Assembly (NCBI RefSeq): GCF_038967635.1
Contig: NZ_CP152413.1
Span: forward strand, 8,870,001-8,934,000
Direction: 5' to 3'
From: Bradyrhizobium sp. B124
GTDB lineage: Bacteria; Pseudomonadota; Alphaproteobacteria; Rhizobiales; Xanthobacteraceae
DNA: 64,000 nucleotides
Made by a program: the position numbers and the translations under genes. The notes under the pieces were generated by a model. That model was not told the origin of the DNA, did no database searches, and saw only the letters and a program-made list of their open reading frames with translations. Each line of letters starts with the position of its first letter. Position 1 is the first letter of the stretch. Positions 29,367 through 40,686 of the stretch are shown piece by piece.

Positions 29367-29377
29367 CGACATTTAGT

Positions 29378-29468
29378 GCACTGTCAGCGTAATTCCAGCG
29401 GCGCTGCGCTACGTGTCGCTGAGTAATTACGGTAATTTCGGTGCAGTCCAGCACTGTCACCGTGATTC
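29378..29468. repeat. pair of near-identical 18-bp direct repeats
   Basis: GCACTGTCAGCGTAATTC (29378-29395) and GCACTGTCACCGTGATTC (29451-29468) match at 16 of 18 positions and are spaced 73 bases start to start. They fill the gap between a conserved gene and the first gene of the accessory block, so they could be an operator pair or the trace of an insertion boundary. Confidence 0.4.
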
Positions 29469-29497
29469 GTGCGGATCGCGTATAGTTCGCGGGAACT

Positions 29498-30388
29498 ATG
29501 GGTGAAGCCAAGCGACGAAAGCGCCTGCCTTGTATCTGCGGCACCGGGCTGCCAGCCGGCGAATGCTGCTGGACGGCGCATGCCTATCACAAGAAGCCCG
29601 TGGCGGTGGACCTGCACAATACCGGCCTGACCGGCAAACATGACCGCTGCTACATGTCGGCGACCGGCGCCTGCGACACCAAGATCTCCGGCGAGCACCT
29701 CATCAGCCATAGCGTCCTGAAGGTTCTGGCCGAGAAGCAGGTGGAAGTCAGCGGCACGCCCTGGCTGAAGCCCGGCGACAAGAAGATGCTGCCATTCTCG
29801 GCGCTGACCACGAACGCTCTGTGCAAGCGCCACAACAGTCTACTGTCGCCCATCGACTCGGTCGGCGCGGCGCTCTTCGAGGCAATCCAGAAGTGCGGCA
29901 CGACTGATACCGGACCGGGCCTGCTGTTCCTGCTGTCAGGCCACGATGTCGAACGCTGGATGCTGCGCTCGCTCGCCATCTTCGGCGTCTCGGGCAACTT
30001 CGCTATCGACGGTGCGGTCATCGACCAGAACTTTGTCGACCGGCTGCGTATCGTCGAGCTGCTGGAATATCCCAAGCAGTGGAAGAAGCCGTTGGGCTTT
30101 TATCTGACACGCGGGCTCGGTCACCAGTTCTGGCGGCGCGACAACATCCAGATTGCGCCGGTGGTGAAGACCGGCGGTGACGAGATCATGGGCATCACGC
30201 TGGACCTGCAGGGCTTGGAGTTCGCGCTGCTCGCTGCCGACCATGACGTGACCGGCACGGGCCTTGACACGGCGCTCTACAGGCCCGCCGCCTTTGTCTT
30301 CGACATGGGCGCGACCAGGCACCGCATTCAGCTCTCGTGGGAGGACGGCTTGCCCCACCAGGACGTGATTATCACGTGGAAGAAGTAG
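29498..30388 (+). CDS. SEC-C/HNH-like zinc protein
   Basis: A 296-residue protein. The N-terminus MGEAKRRKRLPCICGTGLPA continuing to ECCW is an SEC-C-like zinc motif (C-x-C-G-x-G-x5-C-C). Residues ~50-115 carry C-x7-C, then ISGEHLISHSVLK and ALCKRHNSLLSPIDS, the arrangement seen in degenerate HNH-type nucleases (His in a beta-hairpin, then C-x2-H-N). The remaining ~180 residues are unassigned. ATG at 29498 is preceded by a weak GGGAA. Nuclease activity is inferred from the motif layout only. It opens the accessory block. Confidence 0.6.
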   Translation: MGEAKRRKRLPCICGTGLPAGECCWTAHAYHKKPVAVDLHNTGLTGKHDRCYMSATGACDTKISGEHLISHSVLKVLAEKQVEVSGTPWLKPGDKKMLPFSALTTNALCKRHNSLLSPIDSVGAALFEAIQKCGTTDTGPGLLFLLSGHDVERWMLRSLAIFGVSGNFAIDGAVIDQNFVDRLRIVELLEYPKQWKKPLGFYLTRGLGHQFWRRDNIQIAPVVKTGGDEIMGITLDLQGLEFALLAADHDVTGTGLDTALYRPAAFVFDMGATRHRIQLSWEDGLPHQDVIITWKK

Positions 30389-30501
30389 CGGTTCTGCAGG
30401 CGCTTTGAAATTTTTGGGGAGACACTGGTGTCTCGGCAGGGAAGACATATCTGACCGGGGCCGGGAGCCTCACGTGTCCTACGAATAAGTGCATACCATT
30501 A

Positions 30502-30526
30502 CGTAGCACTCATCGGACCGTAGCAC
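30502..30526. repeat. CGTAGCAC direct repeats upstream of the winged-helix gene
   Basis: CGTAGCAC occurs at 30502-30509 and 30519-30526, 17 bases apart, with a related AGTACGTA just after. The position, about 95 bases before the winged-helix gene, would suit an operator. Confidence 0.3.
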
Positions 30527-30619
30527 GCAGCAGTACGTATAGGCCCCTAGTCAGATTCGTCTCCCCTTCGCGGGTCGGCTGACCTTGTGGCGCAAAATGT
30601 TTGGGAGCATATCGCGTTC

Positions 30620-31102
30620 ATGACCGAAGCAACCGCACCAACGACCTCCGCCCCGGTGATTCCCTTCCCGAAGAAAATCTCGGGCAAGCGAGCCGAGGAT
30701 AAGTGGTCACCACAAGTTTTGAAACTCGGCTACACCGCGTTGCCGAACCTGCTCCTGCGCGCCCAAGCAAAGCTGAAGATCAGCCCGCCGCAGTTCAATG
30801 TTCTTGCCCAGCTCTGCGAGCACTGGTGGGAAGCGGACAAGTATCCGTTCCCGGCCAAAGACACGATCGCGCGGCGCATGGGCAAAAGCCCTCGGCAGGT
30901 CCAGCGCTACATCACTGAGCTTGAAGAGGCTGGGCTCATCAAGCGGGTCGAGCGGTTCAACGGCAAGAAGTCTCAGGTGAACAACGGCTACCTGTTCACC
31001 GGGCTCATCAAGAAGCTGAAAGAGCTGGAGCCTGAGTTCAGCAAAGAGGTCGAACTGAAGAAGCTCAGGAAGAAGAAATTAGAGACGGCCAAAGCAAGCT
31101 GA
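30620..31102 (+). CDS. winged-helix DNA-binding protein
   Basis: A 160-residue protein. Residues ~40-110 form a winged helix like that of replication-initiator and GntR/MarR-type proteins: [40 protein letters not shown] (recognition helix) and [15 protein letters not shown] (wing). The C-terminus is strongly basic and coiled-coil-like ([16 protein letters not shown]). Related proteins are widespread in alphaproteobacterial accessory DNA. ATG at 30620 is chosen; the earlier start at 30587 is GTG-type with no better ribosome site. It ends 16 bases before the tRNA-like gene. Confidence 0.8.
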
Positions 31103-31110
31103 CCGTCTCT
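31081..31110 (+). terminator. hairpin at the end of the winged-helix gene
   Basis: AGAGACGG (31081-31088) and CCGTCTCT (31103-31110) form a perfect 8-bp stem across the stop codon. No T-run follows, so it may be a processing or pausing structure just before the tRNA-like gene. Confidence 0.45.
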
Positions 31111-31118
31111 TCCGATAT

Positions 31119-31223
31119 CGCGGCTTAGCTCAATGGATAGAGCCCTGCTTACGATTTAGGTGGTCCTCGCAAGACATACCTAAAGGCAGGAGCGCGCGGG
31201 TTCAAGTCCCGCAGCCGCGCCCA
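31119..31223 (+). tRNA. tRNA-Arg(ACG)-like gene with a 30-nt insertion in the anticodon loop
   Basis: All cloverleaf arms are present. Acceptor stem CGCGGCT (31119-31125) pairs perfectly with AGCCGCG (31213-31219), followed by discriminator C and encoded CCA. D arm: GCTC/GAGC around AATGGATA. Anticodon stem CCTGC (31144-31148) pairs with GCAGG (31186-31190). T arm: GCGGG-TTCAAGT-CCCGC. The loop starts TTACGA, giving anticodon ACG after U33, but between positions 37 and 38 lie 30 extra bases (31155-31184) whose ends TTTAGGT and ACCTAAA pair perfectly. Base 26 has no counterpart. With the insert removed the loop is a normal seven bases. It may be an intron-like insertion, a decoy, or a pseudogene; it lies between a winged-helix gene and a HEPN gene. 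Confidence 0.75.
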
Positions 31224-31250
31224 CTTTTTGCCGGGAGGCCGTTTTGGGCC

Positions 31251-32201
31251 ATGAATACCCTATTCGATAACGCCATCCAGTCGATCCAGCTCGGCATCGA
31301 GGATTACGAGCACAACGACCCGAAGCGGGCGCTTTCGGCCGTGCGCAATTTCTACGCCGGCACGCTGCTGCTCGCTAAAGAAGTGCTGGTCCGCGCGGCG
31401 CCGAAGGCTGCGGTCAAAGACGTGCTCGGAACCAAGTTCGTGCCGGTCCCTGACGGTAATGGCGGCGTGACTTTCGAGGCCAATAACAAGACGGTCGACT
31501 TCAACGAGCTTGGCCAGCGGTTCAAGGATTTCGGGCTGAGCATCGACCGCTCGAAGCTCGCCGACCTGAACAGCATCCGCAATGACATGGAGCACTACTA
31601 CAGCAACGCTTCGAGCAAGAAGGTTCGCGAGGCTATTGCCCGCGCGTTCCCCGTCGTGGTCGACCTGTTCAATTTGCTGAAGGAGCAACCCAACGAACAT
31701 CTCGGCGATAGCTGGACTGTCATGCTCGGCGCCAAGGAACTATACGACCGGGAACTTAAGCAATGCACCGAGACGTTTGACGGCGTCGACTGGAAGTCCG
31801 AAAGCTTGTCGCAAGCCGCGCGACCCTGTCCCAAGTGCAGCTCTCATCTCGTCTACCGGCTCGACCAAACTCGCAATGAATCTGGCTTTGCTGATGCGCA
31901 GTGCAGACAATGCGGCGAGAAGATCGACGCCATCACGTTGATGGAAACGGCCCTCGAAGCTCATTTTGAGTACGAGAGCTACTCGTCGGTAAAGGATGGC
32001 GGAGAGGACCCTCTCGGCTTGTGTCCTGAGTGTACGGCCAAAACGTATGTAATCTGGGAGGAAGAAAACCAGTGCACCAATTGCTTCCTCTCACTTGAAG
32101 ACTGCGACAGGTGCGGTGAGCCGCTCACTCCAAACAATGTGTCAGATGACTCAAGTTCTCTCTGCGGATATTGCAGCAATCTGATGTCAAAGGACGACTA
32201 A
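31251..32201 (+). CDS. HEPN-domain protein with three zinc ribbons
   Basis: A 316-residue protein. Residues 1-145 are helical and carry the HEPN ribonuclease signature R-x4-H at R110-H115 ([10 protein letters not shown]); the opening [20 protein letters not shown] is typical of HEPN-type four-helix bundles. The C-terminal half has six C-x-x-C pairs (193/196, 218/221, 258/261, 275/278, 285/288, 305/308) forming three zinc ribbons that could bind nucleic acid. HEPN proteins of defence systems commonly cut RNA, including tRNA anticodon loops. It starts 27 bases after the unusual tRNA-like gene, with GGGAGG twelve bases before the ATG. RNase activity and any link to that tRNA are inference. Confidence 0.7.
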
Positions 32202-32210
32202 AGCGGGCAG

Positions 32211-32831
32211 ATGCGGCGCGACTACCTCATTGCGATTCTGTTGGCCGTTGCGGCGGTCCCGTTGGGGGCGGCTATGATGGTCGCGCCTGATTATCTCCAC
32301 CTGAGTGGATATTTCATTCCTCTCACGTTTTGGGGAGGAATTGCGCTAGCCGCAGCGCTCATTCTTGTTGCGGCCGTTATAGCCCGGCGCGGCGAAAGGG
32401 CGAGTGAAAACCAGGCCGTTTCTCGATACAGCCATGCTCCCCGTGATGTCCCTTTGCTCGATGCAATCTGGAGGGCGCATCTCGGTCGCTGGAACGACAG
32501 AGTTGATTACGGTGATGAGTGGAGCGCCAAGGCACCCTTTTACAAGACTGTCAGAGACGTTAGGCAAATGGCCCGTGACGGGAAGCTTCCCGTCTGGGGG
32601 ACTAGAACAGAGCGTGGAATGCCATTCGAACCCATCCCACTGAGTTTCTGGGGGACACATGAACTGGAGGCCGGATACATGATCCTGCCTCTAGTCAAAG
32701 ATGCTTGGGTCCATGTGGAGAAGCCGACTAGGATCGGCCAACAGAGATTTGGGCGCACGCAGGACTGGACGAACTTTATGACCAGTCGTGAGGTTGTAGA
32801 GAAGCTGTGGCCTGCTTCTGGCGGACCATAG
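32211..32831 (+). CDS. small membrane protein of unknown function
   Basis: A 206-residue protein with two N-terminal membrane helices (LIAILLAVAAVPLGAAMMVA and FIPLTFWGGIALAAALILVA) and a ~135-residue soluble domain rich in aromatic residues (FYKTVRDVRQMARDGKLPVW). It resembles unannotated membrane proteins of Bradyrhizobium accessory regions. It begins nine bases after the HEPN gene, so both are probably one transcript, and it could anchor the product or act separately. Confidence 0.65.
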   Translation: MRRDYLIAILLAVAAVPLGAAMMVAPDYLHLSGYFIPLTFWGGIALAAALILVAAVIARRGERASENQAVSRYSHAPRDVPLLDAIWRAHLGRWNDRVDYGDEWSAKAPFYKTVRDVRQMARDGKLPVWGTRTERGMPFEPIPLSFWGTHELEAGYMILPLVKDAWVHVEKPTRIGQQRFGRTQDWTNFMTSREVVEKLWPASGGP

Positions 32832-33372
32832 TCGCTGTGCATCGCACCTAAGATCAGGCTGAGGAGCCGTCTGCGTCGCGCAGAGATCGGTATCCACCAT
32901 CATATCGCTGGCGCGTATCTCGTGCGGTTATGCGCAGCAGTCCTCATGGCGCAAGGACAGCCGCCGCGTCTCCAATGGCGGTCATGTAAACCGGATTGCC
33001 GCGCTTGCATTGAAGCGCAGCAAGTCAGTGGACCTTGCTGGCTACTGGGAGCGTCATCTCGGCGAATGATCAAGCTGATTCGTAGACAAAGTCGATTCTG
33101 TCATCGTCAACAGAAAAATCTCACGTTCGACATCTATGCGACTCACAACCGAATCAGCATAAATCTCTCGTTGGCGACCGATTCGCGCAAAAGCCGCCGG
33201 ACGGATCAGGTCTCGGCGGCTTCGCGTATCGGTTCCTGCATCACCCAGAGGGTTGGGCGCAGGACGCATCCTACACAGCGATTCGAATTAGACTCGGATC
33301 GTGGACTCCGGTCAAGGCCCAACCCTCGCATGCATGCCGTTAGCGTACGGCATGTCCAGCATGGAGGGCCGA
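32832..33372. other. intergenic region with transposase remnant and inverted repeat
   Basis: 541 bases without an intact gene. Besides the transposase remnant it has an 11-bp perfect inverted repeat, GAGGGTTGGGC (33248-33258) and GCCCAACCCTC (33317-33327), about 45 bases before the next gene. A 178-codon frame (32922-33458) overlaps both the remnant and the next gene and is not supported. Confidence 0.5.
32863..33069 (+). pseudogene. C-terminal transposase remnant
   Basis: A frame without start codon reads YAQQSSWRKDSRRVSNGGHV, then NRIAALALKRSKSVDLAGYW and ERHLGE before TGA at 33067. I recall this W-R-x-D-x-R-R-V-S-N-G ... V-D-x-x-G-Y-W-x-R-H tail from transposases in Bradyrhizobium, though I cannot name the IS family with certainty. 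No terminal repeats or upstream part remain, so it is a decayed fragment. Confidence 0.45.
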
Positions 33373-33579
33373 ATGGCCTCGAATTACTACGGATACCACT
33401 TCTACGTCGGCAACGACAAAAAACACTCTGGCATCACGATCGATCCGAAGCGACGTGAAGCTGAACATCAGCAGCGCTGGCCCGGCGGCAAGATGTATGT
33501 GGTCGTCGGCCCGATCACTGAAGCACAGGCTCGTACTTGGGAAGCGCAGCAGACGAAGACGATCACTCCTCAGCGGTAG
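33373..33579 (+). CDS. mini GIY-YIG-like protein (68 aa)
   Basis: A 68-residue protein, MASNYYGYHFYVGNDKKHSG followed by ITIDPKRREAEHQQRWPGGK. The aromatic hairpin (YHFYVG), G-I-T-x-D-x-x-R-R-x-x-E-H helix and the final E in TEAQARTWEAQQ mimic a minimal GIY-YIG nuclease core; the canonical second Tyr-x-Gly pattern is modified. ATG at 33373 has GAGG five bases upstream. It may be a single-domain nuclease or an inactive homologue. Its 3' end overlaps the convergent small gene by 17 bases. Confidence 0.6.
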   Translation: MASNYYGYHFYVGNDKKHSGITIDPKRREAEHQQRWPGGKMYVVVGPITEAQARTWEAQQTKTITPQR

Positions 33580-33775
33580 CAGTACCGTCGAAGGTTCCGC
33601 TCTCGCGCGTAAAATAGTACTCGCGATTACCGACACGCAGGATGGAGTACTGGGGCGAGATCGTGACGGACACGGTTTGACCCGTTACTCCATCCTGGTG
33701 TGTGAAAGGGCGAATGACAGCCGTGCAGCCAAATTCCTGGTAGAGATCTCGGATTTTCTCAGCGACATGCGGCAT
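33563..33775 (-). CDS. small hypothetical protein (70 aa)
   Basis: MPHVAEKIRDLYQEFGCTAV opens a 70-residue protein with alternating strands (VSVTISPQYSILRVGNREYY) and no known motif. ATG at 33775 has GGGAG six bases upstream; a TTG start at 33814 is possible. It converges with the GIY-YIG-like gene. Confidence 0.5.
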   Translation of the reverse strand: MPHVAEKIRDLYQEFGCTAVIRPFTHQDGVTGQTVSVTISPQYSILRVGNREYYFTRESGTFDGTATAEE

Positions 33776-33958
33776 CACTAGCTCCCAAGAAATCAAAGAA
33801 TCTCGATTAGACAATGATTCTGGTTGCGGAAAGGTTTCTAAGGTTTCTTCGGGAACCTTGAGCCCGCACCGGGCCGGGCTGGCTTCACTGCGGCGATCTT
33901 CGTTCTTTCGCGCGTTGCAGCGCTAAGGCTTGGACAGGTGGTGCTGGAGGAATTCTGG

Positions 33959-34222
33959 ATGTCCGATGCGAAGGTGAATGAGACCATCGGCTGTCTTGGG
34001 GCTGTTGCGGCAATCTTTGGGATTGTCGGGCTAATTTCTTGGTTGGGTAGCAATCCAATCCCTCGCATGACCGACACTGAGTTTCAGTCTAGAATCTCAA
34101 AGATGAGGGAGGAGCGCCGTCAGCGTTGTATCGACAACATACGCGACAGCGTCCATCTATGGCCAAAGGACGCGCAGAAGTACGCCAGTGGGGCCATGTC
34201 GCACTGCGGCGATGACGATTAA
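33959..34222 (+). CDS. small single-pass membrane protein (87 aa)
   Basis: An 87-residue protein with one membrane helix (IGCLGAVAAIFGIVGLISWL, residues ~10-30) and a charged cytoplasmic-looking tail with two cysteines (RQRCIDNIRDSVHLWP, SHCGDDD). ATG at 33959 has GGAGG eight bases upstream. No family is recognised. It is the last gene of the accessory block. Confidence 0.55.
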   Translation: MSDAKVNETIGCLGAVAAIFGIVGLISWLGSNPIPRMTDTEFQSRISKMREERRQRCIDNIRDSVHLWPKDAQKYASGAMSHCGDDD

Positions 34223-34579
34223 GCCGTCTGTGGAGTTTGCGCCATAACATGGGATCCCACCCACGGCCGGGACCGCAAGCAGTTGCGTAATTTCGGAATA
34301 ATGGAAGTGTGGCGCTGATTTGCCCGACGTGTCAAGTCGGCATTCGAGCGCCGGCGGGCGCTCGCCGGCTACTGTGCATGGGGTTGTTTTCGATATTTTG
34401 GTCGCAGGCCCCTTCGTCCGGTGACGCCCGCTGCAAGTCCGCCGGAACGGCACCGGAAACCGGCTGATTTCGACCTTCGGTCGATCCAGCAATTGTCAAT
34501 TGCCGGGCTCGCCACGGGTAGTGTAAAGCGATTCTAAGGCGGCTCGTGTGAGGCCGCCGGTCCATCCGGGAACCGCTTG
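34223..34579. other. intergenic region upstream of the ccm cluster
   Basis: 357 bases with no coding frame. It holds the dispersed repeat at 34313-34402 and a short hairpin, GCGCCGG...GGGCGCTCGCCGG, within it. Promoter elements for the ccm operon presumably lie in the last 150 bases. Confidence 0.45.
34313..34402. repeat. dispersed intergenic repeat (TTTGCCCGACGTGTCAAG ... GCATGGGGTTGTTTTCGATA)
   Basis: Both ends, TTTGCCCGACGTGTCAAG and CATGGGGTTGTTTTCGATAT, are phrases I recognise from many Bradyrhizobium intergenic regions, with a variable middle. Only one copy is in this window, so the repeat status rests on recollection. Confidence 0.45.
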
Positions 34580-40510: not shown

Positions 40511-40686
40511 CTATCTATGAGTTGGAACGCGTCGCCGGCATTAGTCGCCCCCGCCGACGGCGCGTTCCGGGGGGCGGGCCCCTTGCTCGCTCCCTATGTT
40601 GCCTTTCGATGGAATATGCCCCCCTCTGTCGGAAGGTCTCAGGGCGGTGAGGTCCCCCAGCTTCACCGCCCACTTTTTTCAGCGCC

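Follow-up and report, generated by a model that had tools for sequence, protein, structure and literature searches.

Several RNAs, among them tmRNA, YrlA, the staphylococcal pseudo-tRNAs and the viral tRNA-like structures, are copies of tRNA put to other purposes, and phages and bacteria contend over tRNA anticodons. To our knowledge, none of these copies has an anticodon arm extended like that of the RNA described here, or an HTH partner gene. If the reading proposed below is true, a conserved, mobile, non-decoding look-alike of tRNA-Arg that accompanies a DNA-binding protein and in some copies adjoins defence genes would be well suited as a bait or guard RNA; it would also give a handle on tRNA recognition.

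The RNA lies in a stretch of 64 kb (hereafter the window, always meaning this whole stretch), which covers 8870001–8934000 of a complete 9.17-Mb genome. It resembles the host tRNA-Arg genes (ACG, TCG, CCG and CCT) in its D arm (TAGCTCA..GGATAGAGC, also present in one gene called Thr), its cloverleaf and its Arg-type triplet; it differs from them by 30 extra bases, a bulged triplet and C1-G72 and C73 in place of G1-C72 and G73. As in the intron-containing tRNAs of archaea and nuclei, additional bases separate position 37 from position 38, but here there is no bulge-helix-bulge (BHB), no endonuclease or RtcB match was obtained in the genome and U33 is not kept across the family. The AbiF RNA antitoxin RCd22 (PMC12373285) and the type III toxin-antitoxins are comparable in that a structured RNA adjoins an Abi/HEPN-type gene, as it does in some of the present copies. 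The present RNAs differ in being tRNA-like, tied to an HTH gene and followed by various proteins or none; the downstream protein is a candidate partner only.

Anatomy and predicted fold of the RNA

The RNA and its extended anticodon arm were delimited as follows.

31119..31223, + strand: tRNA-Arg-like RNA of 105 nt with a cloverleaf, an extended anticodon arm and an encoded CCA (Rfam tRNA match, fold z, family, covariation)
31155..31184, + strand: 30-nt insert forming a distal hairpin with a perfect 7-bp stem (TTTAGGT/ACCTAAA)
31149..31154, + strand: U32 and the predicted 5-nt bulge U33-A34-C35-G36-A37, which presents the Arg-type triplet ACG (31151–31153)

All four stems are paired: the acceptor stem CGCGGCT/AGCCGCG (7/7 pairs), the D stem GCTC/GAGC, the anticodon stem CCTGC/GCAGG and the T stem GCGGG/CCCGC. 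The discriminator is C and CCA is encoded at 31221–31223. The bases TTACGA (31149–31154) are followed by exactly 30 extra bases (31155–31184) and then by G (31185), and the extra bases sit between tRNA positions 37 and 38. The initial annotation had described perfect cloverleaf arms, an encoded CCA and a 30-base insertion at 37/38, and both its coordinates and this anatomy were confirmed; the hairpin nature of the insert had been left out. The loop region of the gene is 37 nt long, so the 7-nt anticodon loop of a decoding tRNA is absent; U33 is present in this copy. In the predicted fold, the insert hairpin is stacked on the anticodon stem and U-A-C-G-A (31150–31154) is left as a 5-nt bulge.

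The fold energy is –45.3 kcal/mol (z = –3.03; 0/200 shuffles as good). A check with tRNAscan-SE and Infernal had been proposed in the initial annotation; the Rfam tRNA model (RF00005) gave 44.5 bits against a gathering threshold of 29, and no Rfam family except tRNA was matched at gathering on this RNA. The view that no large group I or II element is present also held: the insert is 30 nt long and no such ribozyme was matched at Rfam gathering in the window, and a group I/II intron was rejected. Run without introns, ARAGORN called no tRNA in the 64-kb window. With introns allowed, it called the RNA tRNA-Leu(TAA), so the isotype given by the program lends Arg no support. The Arg reading is based on the alignment across the family. 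By default, ARAGORN misses the family; once introns are allowed, the isotypes shift between copies, with Arg called in 7/15 distinct copies.

The adjoining HTH gene

Two features precede the RNA.

30620..31102, + strand: HTH_36/DnaD_N-like winged-helix gene, 160 aa from ATG (Pfam, PHROG, codon comparison)
31081..31110, + strand: hairpin over the HTH stop codon, between the gene and the tRNA-like (listed for the – strand; similar in G043, L007 and L009)

The gene ends 16 nt 5′ of the RNA. Its product matched Pfam HTH_36 (8.5e-14) and DnaD_N (7.4e-7) and a PHROG for replication initiation (4.8e-12), and a PDB profile search returned one chain, 2vn2, a chromosome replication initiation protein (E 0.0014). 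The predicted structure is weak (mean pLDDT 69.7), with helices and strands that fit a winged helix. The hairpin over the stop codon is not general, no such fold being found in most other copies.

Related copies and their link to the HTH gene

Altogether, 22 distinct tRNA-likes of 100–114 nt were read, the window copy included. All come from Alphaproteobacteria where the kinship is known, and they lie on chromosomes and on two plasmids. For the host of the window copy, the sRNA BjrC80 and a close named relative of the module in Afipia suggest Bradyrhizobium or a near relative. One further copy, with both the HTH gene and the RNA, was found on a viral contig (L184). The search for the same insert in other genomes, also suggested at the outset, led to a conserved family of extended RNAs, in which the sequence and length of the insert vary. 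No description of such an RNA was found in a literature search covering titles and the openings of abstracts.

A DNA search of 265 genomes of the genus yielded one close copy (G043, 90%); three further matches of 36–38 bp were discarded as they are not tRNA-likes. Plasmid and phage DNA searched with a 141-bp region gave no match. Searches with the HTH protein (30626–31102) led to loci in GTDB species (Afipia and others), on plasmids pRm1132f and pMSC49d and in further genomes, with a match in 24/257 genomes of the genus and 24/397 of the order (own genome counted in both). Above 45 bits, 36 distinct loci were obtained. Eighteen carry a tRNA-like (16 recognized first, two more via the RNA model), among them all eight loci above 198 bits, and the other 18 gave none when searched with the RNA model. 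In the pRm1132f and pMSC49d records, one locus tag is absent exactly at the position of the tRNA-like; our guess is that this may reflect a tRNA call by the RefSeq pipeline, the annotation table being without RNA genes. A viral scan with the HTH alignment confirmed 0/43 candidate stretches, and one with the single HTH protein gave one distant match (L011) without a tRNA-like.

A covariance model was built from 16 HTH-linked copies. Extended copies (100–114 nt) scored 73–107 bits and ordinary tRNAs (almost all 76–79 nt) up to 65 bits in the genus search and 75 bits in the class search; because the scores overlap in the class search, the two were separated by length. Matches were listed down to about 62 bits for the genus, to E 1e-15 for the class and to 1e-18 for the phylum, and the counts are lower bounds. 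An extended copy was present in at least 11/249 genomes of the genus, at least 4/385 of the class (own included) and at least 3/319 of a phylum draw (own included); none outside the class was among the matches listed for these 319 genomes, whose outside-class share was not itemised. These searches gave at least 16 loci, two of which (G178 and G153) have the same sequence. Nine of the 16 were already in the model and seven were new to it.

The HTH gene lies upstream in 14 of these 16 RNA-search loci (at least 16 being found; genus 10/11, class 4/4, phylum draw 2/3). Among the seven loci outside the model it was found in five: G030 and G141, both also reached with the HTH protein, G1000, G755 and G956, where the match is weak (E 2.5e-4). 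No HTH gene was seen upstream of the tRNA-like in G222 and G1215. In the first 16 copies, 3–19 nt separate the HTH stop from the tRNA-like; in G030, G141 and G956 the HTH frame continues into the RNA, and in G261 the HTH gene is interrupted by a stop. On an HTH tree of 38 rows (19 with and 19 without a tRNA-like, one of the latter being the window's own copy, mislabelled where the end of the locus cuts the RNA off), presence of the tRNA-like changes nine times. The copies are spread over the tree and are nevertheless clustered beyond chance, 8/500 shuffles giving a number as low.

Selection on the RNA and its Arg elements

Across 16 copies, 97.0% of the cells of the 21 cloverleaf pairs are paired, and pairing drops to 35–54% when the partners are slid. 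Double-sided changes occur in 27 cells vs 7.7 in shuffles (0/500 as many) and concern eight pairs vs 4.6 in shuffles (6/500); further pair types are no more numerous than in shuffles (18 vs 17.1). As judged from these alignments, the stems covary. Relative to the window, the insert hairpin of G043 (TCTGGGT/ACCTAGA) has a compensatory change at one pair and a G-U at another. The adjoining genes of the window and Afipia differ by 69 synonymous and nine nonsynonymous codons, and their tRNA-likes are identical at 99/105 bases. Random substitutions in the stems of homologues had been named as one mark of a pseudogene. The view that the perfect stems do not result from random decay was borne out by covariation and by the conservation seen in 22 copies.

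The anticodon arm is extended in 22/22 copies, with variable sequence and length. Compared with shuffles, the extended arms have a mean z of –1.9, with 17/22 below –1, and in 11/22 folds an Arg-type triplet lies within a 5-nt bulge. For 15 other copies, z of the whole RNA ranges from –3.68 to –0.42; for L007, L023 and L028, the optimal predicted structure is something other than a cloverleaf. The triplets are UCU (10), UCG (8), ACG (2), GCG (1) and GCU (1); each was placed by eye at two or three bases past the anticodon stem, which leaves some freedom. They all follow the pattern N-C-G/U, C35 and G/U36 being present in 22/22 copies. GCU is a Ser anticodon; the copy that carries it still keeps C35 and U36. 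A20 is also present in 22/22 copies (assigned by hand in the GGGA D loop of L013). A20, C35 and G/U36 are the classical recognition elements of bacterial ArgRS, and with the triplets placed by eye all 22 copies have these tRNA-Arg identity elements.

Other positions depart from tRNA-Arg. U33 is replaced in 7/22 copies, by G in L009, L013, L023, L028, L042 and L048 and by A in L157. At the acceptor end, 16/22 copies have C1-G72 and 17/22 have C73, where the four host tRNA-Arg genes seen have G1-C72 and G73; this makes charging doubtful. An encoded CCA is present in 16/22 copies.

Boundaries of the module and island

The HTH gene and the tRNA-like form a unit of about 0.8 kb with unrelated flanks. 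In the window, this unit includes a part upstream of the gene and lies within an island.

30408..30619, + strand: conserved left part of the module, beginning AAATTTTTGGGGAGACACTGGTGTCTC, where homology with Afipia, UBA4118 and Pseudolabrys starts
29369..34288, no strand: island carrying the module, replaced by 42 bp and 62 bp in close relatives G074 and G259

Seventeen contexts were compared pairwise by blastn (plus strand, E 1e-6, at least 60 bp; L070 and L071 represent a single locus). Module homology passes the 3′ end of the tRNA-like by at most 6 nt, the exception being L070, L071 and L072, which lie at a common locus; many weaker pairs stop earlier, within the RNA or the gene. The only other segment in common outside the module was between L013 and L067, at different places. 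Leaving aside the common-locus pairs and the window vs G043, the five longest pairs begin 809–830 nt before the RNA end. Homology between the window and G043 begins 1,049–1,061 nt before it and takes in the end of the upstream gene. The window and Afipia share 821 bp at 82%, flanked by an unrelated gene here and by an rpoD-like gene there (by eye). The left part of the module is probably a promoter/operator; no sigma-70-type promoter was matched in it. The left edge in the window's group begins AAATTTT..GGGGAGAC; palindromes were seen by eye, and the repeat tool at its settings reported none in the window. At the locus common to L071 and L072, L072 is longer by about 1.1 kb directly after the tRNA-like; in front of the module, L071 is the longer one, by about 2.8 kb.

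The island is about 4.9 kb long. At its site, between a gene of 511 aa and the gene at 34577, 10 of the 11 relatives inspected, with both flanks found, have a spacer of between 4 bp and about 1 kb. No clear repeats were seen by eye at the island ends. tRNA repeats as attachment sites were discarded, no second copy of any 12 or more bases of the tRNA-like being present in the 64-kb window. In L074, a putative tRNA-Ser and a putative phage tail gene, both identified by eye, lie close to the unit. The gene at 34577 is CcmI-like by eye, and the length of the spacer at 29369–34288 varies among relatives.

Neighbouring defence genes

In the window, the RNA is followed after 27 nt by a gene of the same strand.

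31251..32201, + strand: downstream gene, PADLOC PDC-S64, candidate anti-phage protein (E 3.6e-42)

A same-strand ORF starts 16–112 nt after the tRNA-like in 7/18 contexts, and none starts within 112 nt in the other 11 (ORFs overlapping the RNA were left out of these counts, and G089 was counted via an in-frame ATG at about +41). Five of the seven downstream genes match defence or HEPN families: besides PDC-S64, these are AbiJ/Abi_C in G043, HEPN in Pseudolabrys, mREase_II/DUF6998 in G261 and MrcB_N in G141, all directly downstream. Those of Afipia and G089 have no family. Defence genes lie elsewhere in the contexts of G512 (type II R-M), G153 (MmeI-type) and G089 (LmuB); in the other contexts, none was recognized among the selection of ORFs run against the family libraries.

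In some HTH relatives without a tRNA-like (L044, L045, L014 and L017), the HTH gene is followed by another short conserved segment and then by an Abi_2-like gene. The Abi_2 match of L044 exceeds the cut-off and that of L014 falls short of it; L045 and L017 were assigned by eye. These segments had no Rfam match at gathering and are possible further RNA families. The RNA antitoxin of an AbiF system occupies the same place, in front of the Abi gene (PMC12373285). In L077 (G058), an HTH relative without a tRNA-like adjoins a DarT/DarG-like pair (by eye).

Interpretation

A conserved, functional and non-decoding tRNA-Arg-like RNA is very likely. That this mimic is a decoy or RNA partner within a portable, defence-linked module is our preferred reading and comes close to an even chance; a decoy or RNA-partner role in defence, taken by itself, is a tentative proposal. 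The 105-nt RNA would be made as the tail of the HTH gene transcript and freed by the ordinary tRNA-end enzymes, RNase P at the 5′ end and tRNA 3′ processing at the other. It would keep the L-shape and the elements A20, C35 and G/U36 used by ArgRS and other tRNA-Arg binders, with the triplet on the long arm (here in the bulge), and would not enter decoding unless spliced. The HTH gene and the RNA would travel as one unit of about 0.8 kb, some copies landing directly before a defence gene. The RNA would bind a protein that recognizes tRNA-Arg, either an anticodon-cleaving effector of host or phage or ArgRS. Binding may hold the neighbouring defence protein in check or sense an attack on tRNA-Arg, and the HTH protein would set the dose of RNA.

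The initial annotation had listed a processed intron, a decoy or sensor RNA and a pseudogene as options; the evidence points to the decoy or sensor RNA and does not support the other two. Removal of the 30 bases and ligation of the halves into a working tRNA-Arg(ACG) would leave the 7-nt loop UUACGAG, the insert is at the canonical 37/38 site and ligation by a still-undescribed system is conceivable. Against this, the complete 9.17-Mb host genome contains no match to the RtcB profile (control positive in 9/14 genomes) or to the tRNA-splicing endonuclease tRNA_int_endo (control positive in 4/14, the archaea). As judged by eye, the computed folds form no BHB, which PMC4090602 defines as a 4-bp helix with two 3-nt bulges and the anticodon paired to the intron. 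There is no group I/II match at Rfam gathering, the inserts vary from copy to copy in both length and sequence, U33 is replaced in seven copies and the D-arm pattern search, which also matches one host tRNA called Thr, retrieved ordinary tRNA-Arg genes (ACG, TCG, CCG and CCT) from the host genome. The RNA is probably not an intron-containing tRNA, and splicing into a working tRNA is very improbable. A decaying pseudogene would account for the broken anticodon loop; stem covariation, the existence of 22 conserved copies and near-identity with the Afipia copy next to a gene with 69 synonymous differences rule it out for practical purposes.

Among the explanations that grant the element a function, a cis-acting one is unlikely: RNase P and the 3′ enzymes would cleave at the tRNA-like within the HTH-defence transcript and so set downstream expression. 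The spacing of 3–19 nt between HTH stop and tRNA-like in the first 16 copies, the downstream gene starting 16–112 nt later in 7/18 contexts, the hairpin over the stop in some copies and the lack of a terminator-like site on the + strand between 30380 and 31280 suit it, but it leaves unexplained the retention of the Arg triplet and the copies that have no same-strand downstream gene. The tRNA-like could instead be a DNA signal, i.e. the end, attachment or insertion site of the module or its defence cargo. Module homology stops within 6 nt of its 3′ end except in the common-locus copies, the cargo varies between copies and G153 and G261, at one locus, differ by about 1.1 kb directly after it. 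This is quite unlikely, however, as no 12 bases of it recur in the window, neither obvious repeats at the island ends nor an integrase among the window ORFs was recognized by eye, and covarying stems with a conserved triplet suit RNA better than DNA. A cis processing signal or a DNA site accounts for the spacing and boundaries but leaves the triplet unexplained. An RNA charged with Arg for non-ribosomal use, or a titrator of ArgRS, would agree with the ArgRS elements A20, C35 and G/U36 in every copy, the triplets being placed by eye; the predominance of C73 and C1-G72 and a CCA encoded in 16/22 copies speak against it, and its probability is lower still.

A decoy, bait or RNA-antitoxin role accounts best for the triplet and the neighbours. 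Carried further, this role would define a class of portable, defence-linked control modules, in which an HTH protein and a tRNA-Arg mimic with its bulged anticodon as bait guard or trigger interchangeable neighbouring effectors (AbiJ, HEPN, PDC-S64, restriction proteins). When phages attack, the mimic would stand in for tRNA-Arg as the target of binding or cleavage; as a whole, such a class is somewhat unlikely.

Other RNAs

Two viral contigs, judged by eye to carry a terminase-like ORF, have a different tRNA-like, at about 13299 of L183 (counted along its reverse strand) and at about 3954 of L188, without an HTH match and with a non-Arg triplet. Read by eye, these tRNA-likes have the same geometry, with a 6-bp anticodon stem, a 5-nt bulge and a distal helix. 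The sRNA BjrC80 (Rfam RF02354) was found at 40520–40677 of the window, on the + strand, with 137 bits.
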